A stretch of 64,000 bases of DNA, taken from the NCBI GenBank assembly GCA_030537525.1, contig JAUNVU010000004.1:1-64000 (forward strand), given 5' to 3'. How positions within the stretch are numbered: position 1 is the stretch's first letter; every line of letters begins with the position of its first letter. The notes under the pieces were generated by a model. It was not told the origin of the DNA. It saw only the letters and a program-made list of their open reading frames with translations, and did no database searches. Of the stretch, positions 49,566 through 58,638 are shown piece by piece. A program made the translations under genes and the position numbers. Origin of the DNA: Eubacteriales bacterium (GTDB lineage: Bacteria > Bacillota > Clostridia > Saccharofermentanales > DTU023).

Positions 49566-51413
49566 ATGAAAGCTGTTTCAACAAGCATTTTTGGCAAAAG
49601 CCGCAGACAGAAACCCGCATTTTCTGTCCTGAACAACATTTTCTTTCTCCTGAAGAGAATTCTGAGAACAGACAAACTTTACTTCCTATTGCTTTTCTTA
49701 ACAGCCATTTTCTATGTCATCAACCCTCTATTAAATAGTTATCTGCCTAAGCTCATGATCGATGGTTTAGCTCTAGACAGTATGGCTGAGTATCTTGGAC
49801 GCTTGTTCCTCTTTGCCGTCCTGCTAGCCTTCAGCAAGTTCATGATCGCGCGCCTTGAAGTTTCTGTACAGTCACGTAGTGAGGGCCAGCGTTTTTATTT
49901 TCTAGCAGCTACAACGAATAATATGACGACGCTAGATTACCAATATCTCACCTCGAAAGACGGCACTGACAAGATGTTTCGCGCGCTGAATCAAGCCGCC
50001 GAGCCGAACTCACCCGTTGGTAAACTCTTTGGCCAAAGTATGGTGCGCTTTCTGACTGCACTTTTCTCTGTTGCACTTTTCGGCGGAATTTTGATTCATA
50101 TTCACTATTTGCTCCTGATATTTATCATTGGTACAGCTCTGCTACACTTCGGATACGGTTACTTAAATGCCAGCTTCCACGAGCGAGTCCTCCAAGAGAC
50201 GGCAGCTCCGCGTCGTAAAACAGACTACATTCAGAAGAAGACTACCGGTCCAGATTATGCCAAGGATTTGCGAGTCTATAAGATGCAAAACTGGTTCCCT
50301 AATGTCTATGAAGCCCTGGAGAAAGAACTCTTCTTTTGGGAAAAGAAAGACCGTTTTCGGGATTATCTGGGAAATCTCTTAAACCTACTCTTTGCAGTCC
50401 TTAGAGATGCACTGGCCTATATCTACCTCATCCGTCTCTTTGTATCTGGTGAGATCTCCATCGGTACCTTTGTCTTCATGCTCGGTATAGTGCGCTCCTT
50501 TGCCACCCTAACTGGCGACTTCTTCGAAAGTCTCAATCGTTTTCAGAAAGCTTCGCCAGACATCAATGAAGTGCGCGCCTTCCTCTCTATAGAGGACGGT
50601 CTAATCCGAGATCAAGGGGCGAGCCTACCGACAACTTACGATATCTTCTTTGATAACGTTTCTTTCCGCTATTCCGAAGACGGTCCCTGGGTGATCAAGG
50701 ACTTGACCTTACAAATTGAAAACGGTGAATCGCTTGCCGTAGTCGGTCTAAACGGGGCTGGTAAGACCACTCTCTGCAGTCTCTTGATCGGGCTCCTCCA
50801 TCCCACAAGAGGCCGCATCTTGATCGGCGGCGTGGACCTCGAAACTCTAAATATCTACGAGCGCTACAAACTCTTTTCAACTGTCTTTCAAGATTGCCTG
50901 CCAATCCCTGAGAGTATCAGTGATTTCATCACTTGCGATAAGGAGAAGCAGGATCCCGCAGGAGTTGAGCAAGTAATCAAAGAAGCCAAGCTCATAAGTA
51001 AAATCGAAAATCTGCCAGAAGGCGCCAATAGTCTGCTGATGAAAACCTTAAATCCCAATGGCATAGACCTCTCCGGCGGTGAAATTCAGCGCCTGTGCTT
51101 GGCAAGAGCACTTTATCGCAACGCCCCGATCAATATATTGGACGAACCTACTGCCGCTCTGGATCCAATTGCCGAACGCAGTATTTACGAAAACTACTTC
51201 GACATGACACGAGGTAAAACTTCAATTTTCATCTCCCACCGTCTTGCCTCCACCCGCTTTTGCTCCCGAATTATCTTCCTCGCGGATGGCGAAATAAAAG
51301 AACTCGGAACCCATCAGGAATTGATGGACGCAAAGCAGGAATACCGTCGAATTTTCGAGATGCAAGCACACTACTATAAAGAAGGAGTCGAAAGAGATGA
51401 AGAACTTATTTAA
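49566..51413 (+). CDS. ABC exporter half-transporter (membrane domain plus ATPase)
   Basis: A 615-residue fused exporter: six membrane segments in about residues 30-330 and a C-terminal ATPase with Walker A GLNGAGKTT, signature LSGGEIQRLCLA, Walker B INILDEPTAALDP and H-loop FISHRLAS. There is no N-terminal C39 peptidase domain, so it does not process a leader peptide itself. GAAAGGAAC precedes the ATG. It overlaps the next gene by 17 bases, and the two likely form a heterodimer. Confidence 0.93.
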   Translation: MKAVSTSIFGKSRRQKPAFSVLNNIFFLLKRILRTDKLYFLLLFLTAIFYVINPLLNSYLPKLMIDGLALDSMAEYLGRLFLFAVLLAFSKFMIARLEVSVQSRSEGQRFYFLAATTNNMTTLDYQYLTSKDGTDKMFRALNQAAEPNSPVGKLFGQSMVRFLTALFSVALFGGILIHIHYLLLIFIIGTALLHFGYGYLNASFHERVLQETAAPRRKTDYIQKKTTGPDYAKDLRVYKMQNWFPNVYEALEKELFFWEKKDRFRDYLGNLLNLLFAVLRDALAYIYLIRLFVSGEISIGTFVFMLGIVRSFATLTGDFFESLNRFQKASPDINEVRAFLSIEDGLIRDQGASLPTTYDIFFDNVSFRYSEDGPWVIKDLTLQIENGESLAVVGLNGAGKTTLCSLLIGLLHPTRGRILIGGVDLETLNIYERYKLFSTVFQDCLPIPESISDFITCDKEKQDPAGVEQVIKEAKLISKIENLPEGANSLLMKTLNPNGIDLSGGEIQRLCLARALYRNAPINILDEPTAALDPIAERSIYENYFDMTRGKTSIFISHRLASTRFCSRIIFLADGEIKELGTHQELMDAKQEYRRIFEMQAHYYKEGVERDEELI

Positions 51414-53217
51414 AATGCTAGCCCACTTAAAGAGCCTAGATCACCACTATATGACCTGGATGAGCTTCTTCAGCCTGATCAGTGCCCTCACGCCCCTCAT
51501 CGTCCTCACCTTATCGCGCTTCCTTTTGAACGCCTTGGTGACGGGCGCAAGTCAAAGATATATATATTCGCTACTTGCAGGACTCCTCGGAAGCTCTTTC
51601 CTGCTTTATAATCTCCAGGCCTACCTCAAACTCCAAGTGGATATTCGCAGACGTCGCATAGAACGGCGTGAAGCTCAAGGCAAAAGCCGCAAGCTGATGG
51701 AACTCGACCTTGCCTTTCTCGAGGATGAGAGTTTTCTCACCGAATTAGAAGAGATCGAGCAGAAGAAATACATTTCAAACATCGGTGTGATCCCCCTTGC
51801 CGAACAAGTAGAGAGCATGACCCAAGCCTTCTTTAACGTCTTGTTTGGCATTGGCTTAAGCCTCCCCGTATTTCTTCTGCCGCTCTCAGCTGGTTCTATC
51901 AACAACCCTCTGCTCACCGTCGCCCTCTTTGCTGGAATTCTCTTATTTGCAGGTTTCAATTCCCTCCTAAACAACCTGAATATCAAGGCCGCACAAGAAA
52001 TCGTTGCCGGCGATCTCTCGCGCATTAATTTGCAGTTCGGTTACTACGTCATGCGCTATGCTTCGACACCAGAAGGTGCCAAGGACGTCCGCCTATACAC
52101 CTCAAGTTTCGTCCAAGATGTCGCACACTGGCTATATAGAGGAAGTCACGAGTTCATCCTGCAAATTTTCAAGCAACTAGGGAAATTCCCCAGTTATCAA
52201 GAGCTATTATTAGGCTTCAACACCTTCCTCATTTATGCCTATATCGCCTTCAAAGCATACGTGCTCAAACTCCCTGCCGGTGATATTCTCCTCTATGCAG
52301 GCACTATTACCCTCGTCAGTGAGGGGCTCCGAAATGTGCTCATCGCCCGTACCGATTTGAAACTTAACTGGACCTACTTTTCTGAGTATCTAGACTTTAC
52401 CGAGCTGGGAGTTGCCAGATACGAAGGCAGCCTGCCTGTTGAGAAACGCCTAGATCGCTCCTACAGCCTAAAAGCTGAAAACATCTCTTTCGCTTATCCC
52501 GCCACCAAAAAAGAAGTCTTAAAAGATATCAACATCGATTTGCAGATCGGTAAGAAGTATGCTGTCGTAGGTCTTAATGGTTCCGGTAAGACAACGATGA
52601 TCAAGCTCTTGACTAGGCTTTACGACCCCGACCGAGGCACAATCAAGTTGAACGGTATCGACATCAAGAAATTCGCTTACCAGGAGTACTTGGAACTCTT
52701 CTCAGTCGTCTTCCAGGACTTCAAGTTGTTCTCCTTGAGCATCTCCCAAAATGTTGCCTGCTCCATGGATTATGATGCGGCAAAAGTCAAAGCCTGTCTC
52801 GAAAAAGTCGGTTTTGGCGAAATGCTTGCGAGCATGCCAAAGGGTATAGAAACTTGTCTCTACACCGATTACGAAGAAGACGGATATCAAATTTCAGGCG
52901 GCGAAGCGCAAAAGATAGCCTTGGCCAGAGCCCTTTATAAGAACGCCCCCTTCATGATCCTCGATGAACCAACAGCAGCCCTAGATCCAGTATCCGAATT
53001 TGAAATCTATAAACATTTCCAAGAGATCGTAGAAGATCGCACTACAATCTACATCTCACACAGACTTTCCAGCTGCCGCTTCTGCGATGAAATACTGGTC
53101 TTCGACGATGGTCAGATTGTGCAATGCGGAAACCATGAGGAACTCATTCAAGATCCTCATGGCCGCTACTACGAACTATGGAATGCCCAAGCCGCTTATT
53201 ACGAAGATAAGTCATGA
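51397..53217 (+). CDS. ABC exporter half-transporter, partner
   Basis: A 606-residue fused exporter with six membrane segments (about 15-320) and an ATPase: Walker A GLNGSGKTT, signature ISGGEAQKIALA, Walker B FMILDEPTAALDP, H-loop YISHRLSS. Both partners keep the catalytic Glu and His, so unlike many heterodimers neither site is plainly dead. GAAGGAG precedes the ATG. The substrate is unknown. A peptide, lantibiotic or lipid is plausible given the LytTR control. Confidence 0.93.
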   Translation: MKNLFKMLAHLKSLDHHYMTWMSFFSLISALTPLIVLTLSRFLLNALVTGASQRYIYSLLAGLLGSSFLLYNLQAYLKLQVDIRRRRIERREAQGKSRKLMELDLAFLEDESFLTELEEIEQKKYISNIGVIPLAEQVESMTQAFFNVLFGIGLSLPVFLLPLSAGSINNPLLTVALFAGILLFAGFNSLLNNLNIKAAQEIVAGDLSRINLQFGYYVMRYASTPEGAKDVRLYTSSFVQDVAHWLYRGSHEFILQIFKQLGKFPSYQELLLGFNTFLIYAYIAFKAYVLKLPAGDILLYAGTITLVSEGLRNVLIARTDLKLNWTYFSEYLDFTELGVARYEGSLPVEKRLDRSYSLKAENISFAYPATKKEVLKDINIDLQIGKKYAVVGLNGSGKTTMIKLLTRLYDPDRGTIKLNGIDIKKFAYQEYLELFSVVFQDFKLFSLSISQNVACSMDYDAAKVKACLEKVGFGEMLASMPKGIETCLYTDYEEDGYQISGGEAQKIALARALYKNAPFMILDEPTAALDPVSEFEIYKHFQEIVEDRTTIYISHRLSSCRFCDEILVFDDGQIVQCGNHEELIQDPHGRYYELWNAQAAYYEDKS

Positions 53218-53224
53218 TGACGTG

Positions 53225-54757
53225 CTAATCGATGAGTTGTAAACCATCCATTCTAAGCTCATAGACTTTATCAAATACCTCATCGATGAATGCTCTATCA
53301 TGAGAAACTGCAATTATCGCACCAGTGAACTTTAACAGAGCTTCACGGATTTCTGGTCCAGATAAAGGCGACAAATTTCGTGTCGGCTCATCTAGGACCA
53401 GAACTTCTGCGTCATGCAGAATCATTTTGGCAAAATAGAGCTTCGCCTTTTGCCCGCCCGAAAGTTCTGCGATTGGTCTAAGCATTTCCTCTGGAGTGAA
53501 CTTCAGACTTCCGAGATATGTTCTTATTCGCGTGTGTTCTTCCTTACTGTAATCTCTGGTGAGAAAATCTATCGGTGATTTAGACATATCCATTCCTTCG
53601 CCATATTCCTGAGGCATATAGGCTGAGCTGAGATTAAGATTTTTTAACTCTGCGTGGATTTCTCTTAGTAGGGTCGTCTTTCCCGAACCATTTGCTCCGA
53701 CTATACAGATCTTTTCCGGTCCGCAGAGTTCCAGTCTGATATTACGACTCAAAATCTTCGGACCAGCCTTCAATTCAGCTGTCTCATATGCCAATAATGC
53801 TTTCTTTGTATGAATATCACTTGCCGCCTTGAAACCTATGCTGATTGCGTCTTCGACAATCGGTTTTACGGTAAGTTTTGCTTCCTGTTTCTCGAAGCGG
53901 CGACCAATGGACTTGACCGTATGCATCTTGTCTTTCAAATTCCTGGCTACCTCAGGCTCCTGTCTGGAAACTGAGCGTAACTCATGCTGTACTCTCTCAT
54001 AAATCTTTCTATAGCGTTCCATCTGGGCATTGAACTCTTCGCGTTCCTTAAACGCCATTTTACTCTGCCGCTCAATCTTGGCGCTCCTTTGCCTCACATA
54101 TTCTTTATAGTTTAGGGAAGCAACAGTATGAACAGCCCTAGACTTGTGAACTAATTGCTCGAAGTGAACTATGGTATCACTGCAGTTTTCGAGCAGTCGC
54201 TCATCGTGTGAGACAAAGATGATCTTGAGCTTGCTATTCTTGATAAAGTCTTCAAGGAAGCCGATTGAAGCAAGATCTAAATCGTTGCTTGGTTCATCTA
54301 ACAAGAGTAATGTTGGGCGCTTCAAGAGCTGTAAAATAAGTTGATACTTGATCTTCTCACCACCTGATAACTGGCCAAAGTTTAACTCCGGGGAAATTAT
54401 TTCAGAATTTAGTTCGAAGTCGAATAACAGTTTATTGAGCTCAGTGTAATCAATATTTTCCCAGGCTATTTCTTGAACTAAAATCTCCTCGGTAGACTTC
54501 CTGGCATCTGTTTCAGATATTTGCTGTGGTAGGTAGCCAATTACTTCTCCACCATGATTAATTTCCCCCGTGATCTCTACATAATCTGTGATGAGCCTAG
54601 GATCATAAATGGCCTTCAGTAGTGTTGACTTGCCATTACCCTCCTCTCCTATCAGAGCAATTTTATTCCGTTTCTCACCTGGTACGAAGGAGAAGTCCTT
54701 CACTAAATACCGTAGGTCTTTCTTCATATATAAACTGAGCTTGTCAATTCGCAGCAT
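53225..54757 (-). CDS. ABC-F family ribosome-protection-like protein
   Basis: A cytosolic protein with two ATPase domains and no membrane segment, 510 residues. Walker A motifs are GEEGNGKST and GANGSGKTT. Signatures are LSGGEKIKYQ and LSGGQKAKLY. Walker B sites are LLLLDEPSNDLD and VLVLDEPTRNLSP. A charged helical linker (about 235-300, MAFKEREEFNAQMERYRKIYE in part) joins them, the region that enters the ribosomal E site in this family. Antibiotic-resistance ABC-Fs (Lsa, Vga, Msr, VmlR) have this layout, but the drug cannot be told from sequence. ACGGAGG precedes the ATG. Confidence 0.9.
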   Translation of the reverse strand: MLRIDKLSLYMKKDLRYLVKDFSFVPGEKRNKIALIGEEGNGKSTLLKAIYDPRLITDYVEITGEINHGGEVIGYLPQQISETDARKSTEEILVQEIAWENIDYTELNKLLFDFELNSEIISPELNFGQLSGGEKIKYQLILQLLKRPTLLLLDEPSNDLDLASIGFLEDFIKNSKLKIIFVSHDERLLENCSDTIVHFEQLVHKSRAVHTVASLNYKEYVRQRSAKIERQSKMAFKEREEFNAQMERYRKIYERVQHELRSVSRQEPEVARNLKDKMHTVKSIGRRFEKQEAKLTVKPIVEDAISIGFKAASDIHTKKALLAYETAELKAGPKILSRNIRLELCGPEKICIVGANGSGKTTLLREIHAELKNLNLSSAYMPQEYGEGMDMSKSPIDFLTRDYSKEEHTRIRTYLGSLKFTPEEMLRPIAELSGGQKAKLYFAKMILHDAEVLVLDEPTRNLSPLSGPEIREALLKFTGAIIAVSHDRAFIDEVFDKVYELRMDGLQLID

Positions 54758-54822
54758 ATTTCCTCCGTCAACATTTGTCTAAAAACTCAACTAGTACCTT
54801 TCATATGGAGGCTTCAACCATG

Positions 54823-54847
54823 AAAAAATCCACTCTTCCGAGTGGAT
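54823..54847 (-). terminator. Leader terminator (attenuator) upstream of the ABC-F gene
   Basis: On the minus strand ATCCACTC-GGAA-GAGTGGAT is followed by six T. It begins four bases after the stop codon of the short leader frame and lies 66 bases before the ABC-F start, so it should end transcription before the gene unless overridden. Confidence 0.8.
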
Positions 54848-54851
54848 ATAA

Positions 54852-54893
54852 CTACTGCGCTAACCAGACGGAAGACGGGATCTCGTATATCAT
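54852..54893 (-). CDS. Candidate leader peptide (13 residues) of the ABC-F gene
   Basis: A short frame, MIYEIPSSVWLAQ then TAG, begins with ATG at 54893. GAGG lies six bases upstream, a good ribosome binding site. Its stop is four bases before the 5' arm of the attenuator hairpin. This is the layout of drug-inducible ribosome-stalling attenuators known for other ABC-F and erm genes. The peptide sequence is new to me. Its translation is unproven. Confidence 0.55.
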   Translation of the reverse strand: MIYEIPSSVWLAQ

Positions 54894-54932
54894 GGCAAGC
54901 CTCAAACCTCGCCCGACCTCTTGGCCTGGCGC
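54857..54932 (-). other. Structured leader RNA of the ABC-F gene
   Basis: On the minus strand GCGCCAG (54926-54932) can pair with CTGG..CGC (54857-54867, bulged), enclosing GGCC-AAGA-GGTC and GGCGAG/CTTGCC stems. The second stem hides part of the leader frame's start region. I do not recognise a known riboswitch class. Confidence 0.4.
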
Positions 54933-55010
54933 TCTAACTTAAATAAGTTCTAGCTCACCGATATACTATTTGATCATCCCTATCTCCCTTAATTAATTTC
55001 TAAACAGGCC

Positions 55011-55757
55011 CTAGACCCTGTCTTCAGTAAATAAGCTAAAGCACTTCTCAGCCTGGCCGAGAACCATGTCATAGCCATTTTTAACCACTATGCCATGCAC
55101 TTCCAGCTTATTCATGATGCTAGTTTGCCACGGGCTATAAATCATGTCAAAGAGAGTTTCCTGGCCAGGTAGTGGTTTTTCTAACAAGCTCTTGTCCTCG
55201 TTATATCCCACAGTCGTCGCCTGGACAAGATTGGTCGCCATGCCCTCTTCAACTTCTTTAAGATCGTACACAATTTGGATGTCTTCTTTAATCTTGCGAA
55301 GCTCAGAATCCTTCGAGTCATCACGGCAATAGACAGTAACTGGTCTATCCTTAAACGCAAGAATTGCTGCCTTCGCTGCGCCGCTGCGTCCCAGTATCAA
55401 TACAGATCCTGGTACAAATAGACCGTCGACTGCAGATAATACTCCGTCAACATCTGTGTTATAGCCGTAAAGCTTACCGTTGCGGTGAACGACCGTATTA
55501 GAGGCATTAAGTATCTTCACGCGTTCGTCTGTCCAGTCTAAGTACTTTAAGATCTCTGCCTTGTAGGGAGAGGTGACATTGAAGCCCCAGACATCCTCGG
55601 CTTTTGCCTTAGTAATCACGCTGGGTATTTCGTCTAAATCTACGTCCATCAGGCCGTACTTTGCATCTATACCAGCTTTCTGCAGTAGGTTGTTATGGAT
55701 TTCGGGTGAAACCGACTTGGATATTCCCTTACCTAGTAGAAACAGCTTAACTTTCAT
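55011..55757 (-). CDS. aroE: Shikimate dehydrogenase-like protein
   Basis: Reduces 3-dehydroshikimate to shikimate with NADPH. The substrate site is [16 protein letters not shown] with SxS, the catalytic lysine and aspartate lie in FNVTSPYK and YNTDVDG, and the cofactor loop is [14 protein letters not shown] use the ATG at 55757 ([14 protein letters not shown] upstream, 248 residues). The frame from 55817 adds 20 residues. It is slightly short, and SPYK replaces the usual IPxK, so a relative such as YdiB or a quinate/shikimate-like dehydrogenase is possible. Confidence 0.82.
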
Positions 55758-55883
55758 CTTGTACCTCACAATTCTTACATCCTCAAAAAAATTATCCACG
55801 TCCGCTATTCCAAACATATGTTACTAGTCCATGGCTGTTTTTTTCAAGCTGAAACAGTAGTATTATTTTTATGTATATTTACA

Positions 55884-56343: not shown

Positions 56344-58428
56344 TTAATGTACCTTGCGACGCAAGAGGATTACCGCCATCAACAGGCCCAATGTGCTGAT
56401 TCCTAATACATAGGATTTACTGCTCTCTCCTGTTGCTGGTATTTGAGGTGTGGTTACTTCAGTGTGCACTGTGGGTACAGGTGCTTTGACTGTTTCCGTT
56501 GGCACAGTGAAGCTATAACTTGGCGTCGGGTGTGGGAGGGTTACGGTCGAGGTTGGAACGGTTGTGGTCGTGGTAGGATCCGTGGTTGTCGTGGTTGGGA
56601 CAGTAGTGGTCGTGGTAGGAGTTTCACTTGGAGTTTTCTTATTCGTCACTATGAAGCCATTTACAACATCTCCAGTGATGGCAACGGTGTAGCCAGAAAC
56701 TTCTGCTTCACCAATTGTATACACAATCTCAACTCCATCAGCAGTTTTCGGAAGACCCTCAAACTTTCCTGTCCATCCATTTTTCTCATTGAGTTTCAAG
56801 CTCAAGCCAGTATCAGAACCGTTTGCAGACAATTTAACTTCAACCTCAGCTGGACGCTGACCATCTTTGTTATCGCTATCTTCCCAAACTTTCGTAACAG
56901 AAATCTCAATTGGCTCTTCATCCTTACCAATGATTACCGTACCGTTTGATCCGATTCCACCACCGCGCGTTGCCGACTCATTACCGCTGATAATTACTTT
57001 CGTCAGTTGTTCAGTTAGTTTATTGCCTGTTTCGTTAGTGTAAAGACCGAGAAATTTTTCATTGGGCAATGTGCCTTCAAGAGACTCAAAGCTCTTCTCG
57101 GCAAACTTCCAATTATATGATTGTCCTCCTAACATGTATTCAGAGATCTTAAAAGGAGGTTCTCCACTATGTAGACCATAATTAAGGTCACTATATATAT
57201 AAATATCTCTGGCTTCCTCGCTTGTTTTATTTCCATATATAGCAGCACCTTCTGTAAGGTAAACTTCTGTTTTAGAAATAGGACAAGCAGCATAACCAGC
57301 ACCTTCAAATTTTGCTGAATTATCAGTGATTAAAGCATTCTTAAGATAAAGCTCACCATTGCCACCCCATTCCTTTGTTGCTCCATTGACGTAAATACCA
57401 GCACCACCAAAAGCATTATCTGTATAACCAGATCTGTCAGTTTTGTTATTTAGAATTTTCCCTCCGCTTATATATGCCTTTGATGAACCTCCATTAAAAT
57501 ATCTGGCCTGGATCATAATTCCTCCACCAGTTGCTCCTGCAGTATTACCTTGAATCAATCCTCCTTCCATATATAAATAGTTGTCGCCGTATTCCCAAAT
57601 TCTACTACCCAAACTAATCCCACCTCCTACTTCATGAGAAAAGTTATTGGAAACCTCTGCTGCGCCAGACATTTTAACCGTTGAACCTTTATTGGCTAAT
57701 ATACCGCCTCCAGCTAAATAATGTTGATAAGGCGTTACAGATTCATCGGTGACTCTATCAGCTTTGTTATTGTTAACCTTGCCACCAGAGAAATTTAAAG
57801 TTGACCTATGTAGACAAATACCACCACCATTGATAGCGCTGTTATGTTCGATAATTCCGCCAGTCATATTTATAGTGGAACTTTTAGCAAAAACCGCACC
57901 TCCAAAAGTTCTGGTGTTTTTAATTATCTTAATTTTATTGTTTCTCAGGACAGTCCCTTCTGTAATATTTAACGTAGCGCCCTTATTCACAATAACTAAA
58001 GATTTTACAATGTTAGGGTTATTCTCTGAGTTACCGTCTATTTTAATATCACTTAGTTGTGCCTTTTTACCTTCAGGAATACAAAATAAGTAATCATTGA
58101 AGTCTTTATATCGAAGTATCTTTACGTTTAAGTCCTTTAAAGATATATCGCCTTCAAGATTTGCCGTTCCTGTGACAATGATTTGTGTTATATCAGAATT
58201 ATTCTTAGCAAGCTCCTTAGCCTTGGCAAACGTCTTCACCGCTTCTTCAGGAGTCAAACCGTTTTCATCATCATTGCCAGCCTGACCATTTAAATAAATG
58301 GCATTCTCAGATCCTCTTACAGCTGGGGAACCAGGATCTCCCGCTGGATCATCTGCTAGGAGGAATAAGCCATTCAATATAAATGCGAAAATAAGTATTA
58401 TCGCAAAAATCTGCCTTTTAAACTTCAT
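56344..58428 (-). CDS. Beta-helix surface protein with Cna-B repeat and IPATGE signal
   Basis: A 694-residue wall protein from the ATG at 58428 (MKFKRQIFAI, GGAAGG upstream). Order: signal peptide (about 1-27), a right-handed beta-helix-like region (about 40-480) with many GG[GA]I and INMTGG/NNKAD turns as in pectate-lyase-like or polymorphic surface proteins, one Cna-B/transthyretin-like domain (ISVTKVWEDSDNKDGQRPAEV through VVNGFIVTNKK), a Thr-rich repeat stretch, and the sorting signal IPATGES, a hydrophobic segment and RRK. Likely an adhesin or glycan-binding protein. The ligand is unknown. Confidence 0.85.
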   Translation of the reverse strand: MKFKRQIFAIILIFAFILNGLFLLADDPAGDPGSPAVRGSENAIYLNGQAGNDDENGLTPEEAVKTFAKAKELAKNNSDITQIIVTGTANLEGDISLKDLNVKILRYKDFNDYLFCIPEGKKAQLSDIKIDGNSENNPNIVKSLVIVNKGATLNITEGTVLRNNKIKIIKNTRTFGGAVFAKSSTINMTGGIIEHNSAINGGGICLHRSTLNFSGGKVNNNKADRVTDESVTPYQHYLAGGGILANKGSTVKMSGAAEVSNNFSHEVGGGISLGSRIWEYGDNYLYMEGGLIQGNTAGATGGGIMIQARYFNGGSSKAYISGGKILNNKTDRSGYTDNAFGGAGIYVNGATKEWGGNGELYLKNALITDNSAKFEGAGYAACPISKTEVYLTEGAAIYGNKTSEEARDIYIYSDLNYGLHSGEPPFKISEYMLGGQSYNWKFAEKSFESLEGTLPNEKFLGLYTNETGNKLTEQLTKVIISGNESATRGGGIGSNGTVIIGKDEEPIEISVTKVWEDSDNKDGQRPAEVEVKLSANGSDTGLSLKLNEKNGWTGKFEGLPKTADGVEIVYTIGEAEVSGYTVAITGDVVNGFIVTNKKTPSETPTTTTTVPTTTTTDPTTTTTVPTSTVTLPHPTPSYSFTVPTETVKAPVPTVHTEVTTPQIPATGESSKSYVLGISTLGLLMAVILLRRKVH
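56538..56640 (-). repeat. Thr-rich tandem repeat in the wall-spanning region
   Basis: Imperfect repeats of about 21 bases encode TTTTTVP / TTTTTDP / TTTTTVP. Such coding repeats can change in copy number by slippage and set how far the protein extends through the wall. Confidence 0.65.
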
Positions 58429-58638
58429 ACTGCACCTTCCTTTGCATGGAATGCGTATATCAATACCGGATACCGTACTCATTGTACGAAATAACTTTGT
58501 TACAAAAAAAAGAAGTAGTCAAATTAAAAAAGTAACACTTTAGTCTTTGCTCACCGACTAGCCGTCATGAATAGCCCACATCTAGCCTTAATTTCTAAAA
58601 TATAATTAGGTCAACATCTCATAGAAAGGATGGCCCCT

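Follow-up and report, generated by a model that had tools for sequence, protein, structure and literature searches.

The window is the whole stretch of DNA that was analyzed, 64,000 nucleotides in length. It encodes an ABC-F protein on the minus strand (53225 to 54757), preceded by a 253-nt leader (55010 to 54758, minus strand). The leader lies between the ABC-F gene and an aroE-like gene (55011 to 55817, minus strand). The aroE-like gene is divergent. Its best family match scores 160.8 bits, below the cut-off of 200.2; Pfam recognizes only the N-terminal domain of its product. Tandem genes for two ABC exporters (permease plus ATPase, 615 and 606 amino acids) are found on the plus strand at 49566 to 53217 and converge with the ABC-F gene. 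A gene at 56344 to 58482 (minus strand) encodes a 712-amino-acid protein. By eye, parts of this protein are right-handed repeat-like or Cna-B-like; it also has a stretch rich in Thr and Pro and, at its C terminus, a possible cell wall anchor (PATGES...RRKVH).

The ABC-F protein contains 510 amino acids, with two intact ABC domains, a helical-hairpin linker, and both ATPase sites intact in the alignment. It scores 289 bits against the NCBIfam model ribo_prot_ABC_F, under the cut-off of 380. The nearest solved sequence is VmlR (phmmer, 175.6 bits), followed by VgaL/Lmo0919, and VmlR2 (8buu) ranks first in the profile search. The predicted model has a pLDDT of 88.9, and its closest folds are PoxtA, VmlR2, and Sal(B). 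The nearest solved structures are thus antibiotic resistance ABC-Fs (ARE-ABCFs). The housekeeping ABC-Fs EttA and YheS also match the protein strongly. PADLOC matches were dismissed as generic ATPase matches. None of the named resistance families reaches its cut-off for this protein, and all are far below it; we can therefore only infer that it is an ARE-ABCF and functions in resistance. No description of its clade was found in the literature searched.

A mobile homologue is about 48% identical to the window protein and has a short upstream open reading frame (uORF) encoding MINR. Its DNA is nearly identical in a dozen unrelated gut bacteria. The gene follows that of a CD1110-family conjugation ATPase and immediately precedes a gene for a Lnu(C/D/P)-like lincosamide nucleotidyltransferase. 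Copies were retrieved from L043 to L054 (without L050), L104, and L108 (e.g., L044, 3001 to 5127), within a conjugative element. The hosts are Eubacterium, Blautia, Butyribacter, Levyella, Baileyella, Pseudoramibacter, Ruminococcus bromii, and a Gastranaerophilales MAG. Plasmid and phage records contained no close relative; all matches were below 60% (those listed, 25 to 29%). The Lnu-type neighbor of this homologue gives a supporting hint that the window ABC-F may have a resistance role.

An intrinsic terminator was identified in the leader at 54823 to 54847 (minus strand) from the sequence and a terminator scan. The hairpin, ATCCACTC-GGAA-GAGTGGAT, occupies 54847 to 54828 and runs into six T at 54828 to 54823. 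It contains 8 pairs and a GGAA loop and is the top-ranked site of 2 kb, in which the scan found 3 terminator-like sites against 1.3 expected. The predicted fold of the whole leader beats 200 of 200 dinucleotide shuffles (z = -3.6). An Rfam scan retrieved two tRNAs only, with no riboswitch or T-box and no match in the leader region.

Two short frames precede the terminator. The longer one, MIYEIPSSVWLAQ (54852 to 54893, minus strand), has 13 codons and a stop (ATG ATA TAC GAG ATC CCG TCT TCC GTC TGG TTA GCG CAG TAG). GAGG stands at 54903 to 54900, six bases 5' of the ATG at 54893, and a TTAT spacer of four bases separates the stop codon from the hairpin, which starts at 54847. An earlier note had described this frame with its ribosome binding site, the spacing, the strong hairpin with six T, and the ABC-F gene behind it. 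All of these are present, and Pfam ABC_tran matches the product of 54757 to 53225 in two stretches. The second frame has three codons and a stop (ATG ATC AAA TAG, encoding MIK; 54966 to 54977, minus strand). Its Shine-Dalgarno (SD) sequence is AAGGGAG (54984 to 54990, minus strand; SD match in the uORF scan). The arrangement AAGGGAG-ATAGGG-ATG ATC AAA TAG at 54990 to 54966 lies just outside the interval of the earlier note, 73 bases upstream of the 13-codon frame. Its counterparts and their enrichment in relatives suggest that the MIK uORF is probably the drug-sensing frame.

The upstream regions of orthologous ABC-F genes contain an SD followed by a 3- to 4-codon frame at the equivalent place; the 13-codon frame is not common to them. 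By hand, a short uORF with an SD was placed there in 46 leaders. The peptide is MII in the genus sister and MNN, MNR, MIN, MIS, MNS, or MIL in other relatives. Lachnospiraceae uORFs mostly encode MINR, MIIR, or MFIR. When an ATG, an SD match of at least 5, and 2 to 4 codons were required as a strict automatic criterion, such a uORF was found in 33 of 57 nonredundant leaders, against 2.5 in shuffles (maximum, 6). The same criterion found one before 5 of 163 neighboring genes at these loci and before none of 47 other window genes. No uORF was assigned in relatives L006, L007, L010, L012, L013, and L015. In L010, L012, and L013, the ABC-F gene stands right behind a hairpin and T run that follow the upstream gene, and no ultrashort uORF is recognizable. 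Judged by these three leaders, ultrashort-uORF control is not universal within the clade. The proposed sensor type is extended here to an ABC-F clade of Tissierellia, Helcococcus, Anaerococcus, and many Lachnospiraceae.

The predicted fold of the window leader and duplex tests place the uORF in an anti-antiterminator stem. In this fold, the uORF SD, the start codon, and the bases from the stop onward pair with the stretch that holds the GAGG, the ATG, and the first eight codons of the 13-codon frame. The 5' arm, GTATATCGGTGAGC (54953 to 54966, minus strand), begins with the last base of the uORF stop codon (duplex test, p = 0.003). The 3' arm, GAGGCTTGCCATGATATAC (54885 to 54903, minus strand), contains the GAGG and ATG of the 13-codon frame. 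A lower part, GGGAGATAGGGAT (54976 to 54988, minus strand), contains the uORF SD and start codon and pairs with 54870 to 54881. The segment ATCCCGTCTTCCG (54869 to 54881, minus strand) is a two-way partner. Its partner is the uORF SD with the start codon in the repressed form or, when it acts as the 5' arm of an antiterminator, the terminator in the induced form.

These pairings were compared across relatives. A whole-leader MAFFT alignment was unusable because the leaders are too divergent, and the comparison rests on stem arms and on duplex tests within each leader. The arm after the uORF stop pairs downstream better than shuffles in 24 of 41 leaders, and in 31 of 41 a second site closer to the gene can pair with the stem's 3' arm (both at p < 0.05); the 41 leaders are related, and combined p values overstate the support for pairing. 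In relatives with a short CAAUAUGG/CCAUAUUG stem, pairing holds in 98.6% of cells, and compensatory changes are seen at 6 of 9 pairs, in an alignment whose arms were chosen because they pair and whose window row was entered minus its two-base bulge. None of 500 shuffles was as good, and sliding the partner destroys the signal. The consensus from an alignment of 19 Lachnospiraceae leaders is of the antiterminator type, and compensatory changes occur at 15 of its 33 pairs. The fourth uORF codon in the Lachnospiraceae leaders (alignment A4) is nearly always Arg (AGA or CGA), followed by the stop. The resulting AGATAA appears to lie within the anti-antiterminator stem (GATAAT/ATTATC). RNA pairing, not the peptide, may be the cause of this conserved Arg.

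The effect of a ribosome on the leader was computed by barring a footprint of -14 to +15 around the P-site codon from pairing, in an equilibrium model that ignores co-transcriptional order. With the ribosome on codons 1 to 4 of the MIK uORF, including the stop, the probability of the terminator falls from 0.97 in the free leader to 0.00, 0.02, 0.05, and 0.05. The probability of the antiterminator rises from 0.00 to 0.95 to 1.00. Shuffling the intervening region 300 times never gave a switch. In this thermodynamic model, the terminator between the uORF and the gene is mutually exclusive with the antiterminator that the ribosome frees. About half of 14 terminator-bearing leaders fall below a terminator probability of 0.6 when the ribosome sits on the start or stop codon of the uORF. 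The modeled switch was not reproduced in the equilibrium fold of the genus sister, L002.

Together, these results make it very probable that the leader (55010 to 54758) works by ribosome-mediated transcription attenuation, as vmlR/cplR-type leaders do, and senses drug via the MIK uORF. With no drug present, the uORF would be translated and the ribosome would leave quickly. The uORF SD, start codon, and post-stop bases would then pair with GCUUGCCAUGAUAUAC...AUCCCGUCUUCC as the anti-antiterminator, the terminator would form, and the ABC-F gene would be off. If a drug inhibited initiation or formation of the first peptide bonds, the ribosome would be held at the uORF. By analogy, the inducers may be lincosamides, pleuromutilins, and streptogramins A. 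The held ribosome would free AGAUCCCGUCUUCCG, which would pair with the terminator loop, 3' arm, and U tract as the antiterminator, and the ABC-F gene would be transcribed. On the 3' side of the terminator, CAUGGUUGAAGCCUC would pair with GAGGCUUGCCAUGA and lock the open state. The segment CATGGTTGAAGCCTC (54808 to 54822, minus strand) pairs with GAGGCTTGCCATGA in the read-through form (duplex p = 0.010) and has a counterpart in relatives. The earlier note had proposed a drug-inducible leader-peptide attenuator. The computation supports ribosome-mediated transcription attenuation before the ABC-F gene but not the 13-codon peptide as its sensor. The CCAG/CTGG antiterminator that the note suggested was not recovered; the predicted pairing is AGAUCC-CG-UCUUCCG with CGGAAGA-GU-GGAUUUU.

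If the 13-codon frame MIYEIPSSVWLAQ were the sensor, a ribosome stalled on it would cover the 5' arm of the terminator or free an antiterminator. The frame, its SD, and its spacing are real. It is also open in the genus sister, as MIYEIPSSGALSKV with the SD kept, and the two third-position differences in the codons common to both frames are synonymous. In the model, a ribosome at codon 13 or at the stop would block the terminator by direct occlusion (probability, 0.02 and 0.00). However, stalling at codons 1 to 11 leaves the terminator at 0.89 to 0.97 (0.62 at codon 12). The end of the frame differs between the window (VWLAQ) and the sister (GALSKV), as does the stop-to-stem spacing (4 versus 9 nt). 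The start codon lies within the anti-antiterminator stem, and no known arrest motif (IFVI, RYR, or similar) was seen in the peptide by eye. Conservation of the frame upstream of orthologous genes, which the earlier note had offered as a check, was not found: the start codon and SD are absent outside the genus. Ten other leaders contained no ATG at this place or an ATG that lacks an SD and opens an unrelated peptide (2 to 43 residues). The first eight codons coincide with two RNA arms, the 3' one of the anti-antiterminator stem and the 5' one of the antiterminator, and RNA pairing, which uses them in both states, accounts for their conservation. The two synonymous differences sit at positions that, in our reading of the window, are unpaired or mismatched. 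We regard this frame as a highly unlikely sensor. Because it has no counterpart outside the genus and overlaps the RNA arms, it is probably a by-product of the RNA switch, though it may have a secondary role. The case shows how a longer open frame within an RNA switch can pass for a leader peptide.

The two frames could also act together, with MIK sensing the drug and drug-free ribosomes on the 13-codon frame melting the antiterminator and resetting the leader to termination. If true, this would give a threshold response in which the gene is off unless most ribosomes are blocked. The terminator can still form when a ribosome covers the antiterminator's 5' arm (probability, 0.96 to 0.97 at codons 3 to 11), and the one sister species keeps the 13-codon frame and its SD. 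Yet this is a predicted frame present in two genomes only, pairing in the repressed state includes its SD and start codon, and we consider such a combination very unlikely. It is extremely improbable that the hairpin is a mere terminator of the aroE-like gene with no regulatory role. It does lie downstream of that gene, and no clear promoter was found in the window between aroE and the uORF. However, the sister has the same leader before its ABC-F gene behind a different upstream gene. The uORF, the stem, and its second partner also recur in many genomes with unrelated upstream sequence, and the switch was computed in the window itself.

Attenuation via the MIK uORF was also considered at the SD of the ABC-F gene, GGAGG (54762 to 54766, minus strand). 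The CCUCC of CAUGGUUGAAGCCUC could alternatively pair with this SD. In the window, folding gave no change in its exposure on uORF stalling (0.72 to 0.71 unpaired). In the terminator-less leaders L011, L014, L019, and L020, post-uORF sequence pairs with the gene SD, and stalling frees it in the folding (0.18 to 0.22 rising to 0.52 to 0.73). L011, L014, L016, L017, and L019 have compact leaders without a terminator, in which ATGAACAGCTAA (encoding MNS) is followed directly by a segment able to pair with the ABC-F SD. This segment covaries with the SD between L011 (AAAGACT/AGTCTTT) and L019 (AAGGACT/AGTCCTT). The compact terminator-less leaders look like pure translational attenuation, which the freeing of the SD in the four folded leaders also fits.

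Leaders of the ermC/msrD type rely on arrest inside a specific peptide. The window leader likewise appears to place a probable resistance gene under ribosome-mediated control, but it has no arrest motif or peptide conservation. When leader peptide conservation among orthologues was tested, only the sister had a counterpart, with a different C-terminal end.

In the vmlR leader of Bacillus subtilis, a uORF (MIN) lies within an anti-antiterminator hairpin; the leader also has a terminator and an SD hairpin, and induction by lincomycin needs initiation at this uORF (PMC9226507). The vmlR leader shares with the window leader a three-codon uORF within an anti-antiterminator hairpin, an intrinsic terminator, and an ABC-F gene (PMC9226507). 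In both, a stalled ribosome favors the antiterminator, and a segment 3' of the terminator joins the induced fold, as computed for the window (PMC9226507). The window uORF differs in encoding MIK, its ABC-F belongs to another clade (175.6 bits to VmlR by phmmer), and SD sequestration is unsupported by folding. The likeness is one of architecture. In Clostridioides difficile, cplR has a uORF encoding MR[I/M], a terminator, and an ABC-F gene, and it combines transcription and translation attenuation (PMC10201436). The window resembles cplR in its three-codon uORF, terminator, and ABC-F gene; however, the cplR terminator itself sequesters the gene SD (PMC10201436), whereas in the window the terminator is separated from the downstream SD by at least 57 nt. 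Further ultrashort uORFs before ABC-F genes are those of vmlR2 (MK[L/Q]) and lsaA (MAGN) (PMC10201436). For the are5sc uORF (MLV), drug stalling at the start codon was seen by toeprint (PMC12421871). These three are like the window in having a very short uORF but differ in peptide and ABC-F subfamily. The window leader thus shares every testable feature of the vmlR/cplR type except SD exposure, and the mechanism is already known. The cplR study poses the question of whether short uORFs are drug selective (PMC10201436). The uORFs found here (MIK, MNN, MNS, MINR, MIIR, and others) are a natural set ready for testing such selectivity.
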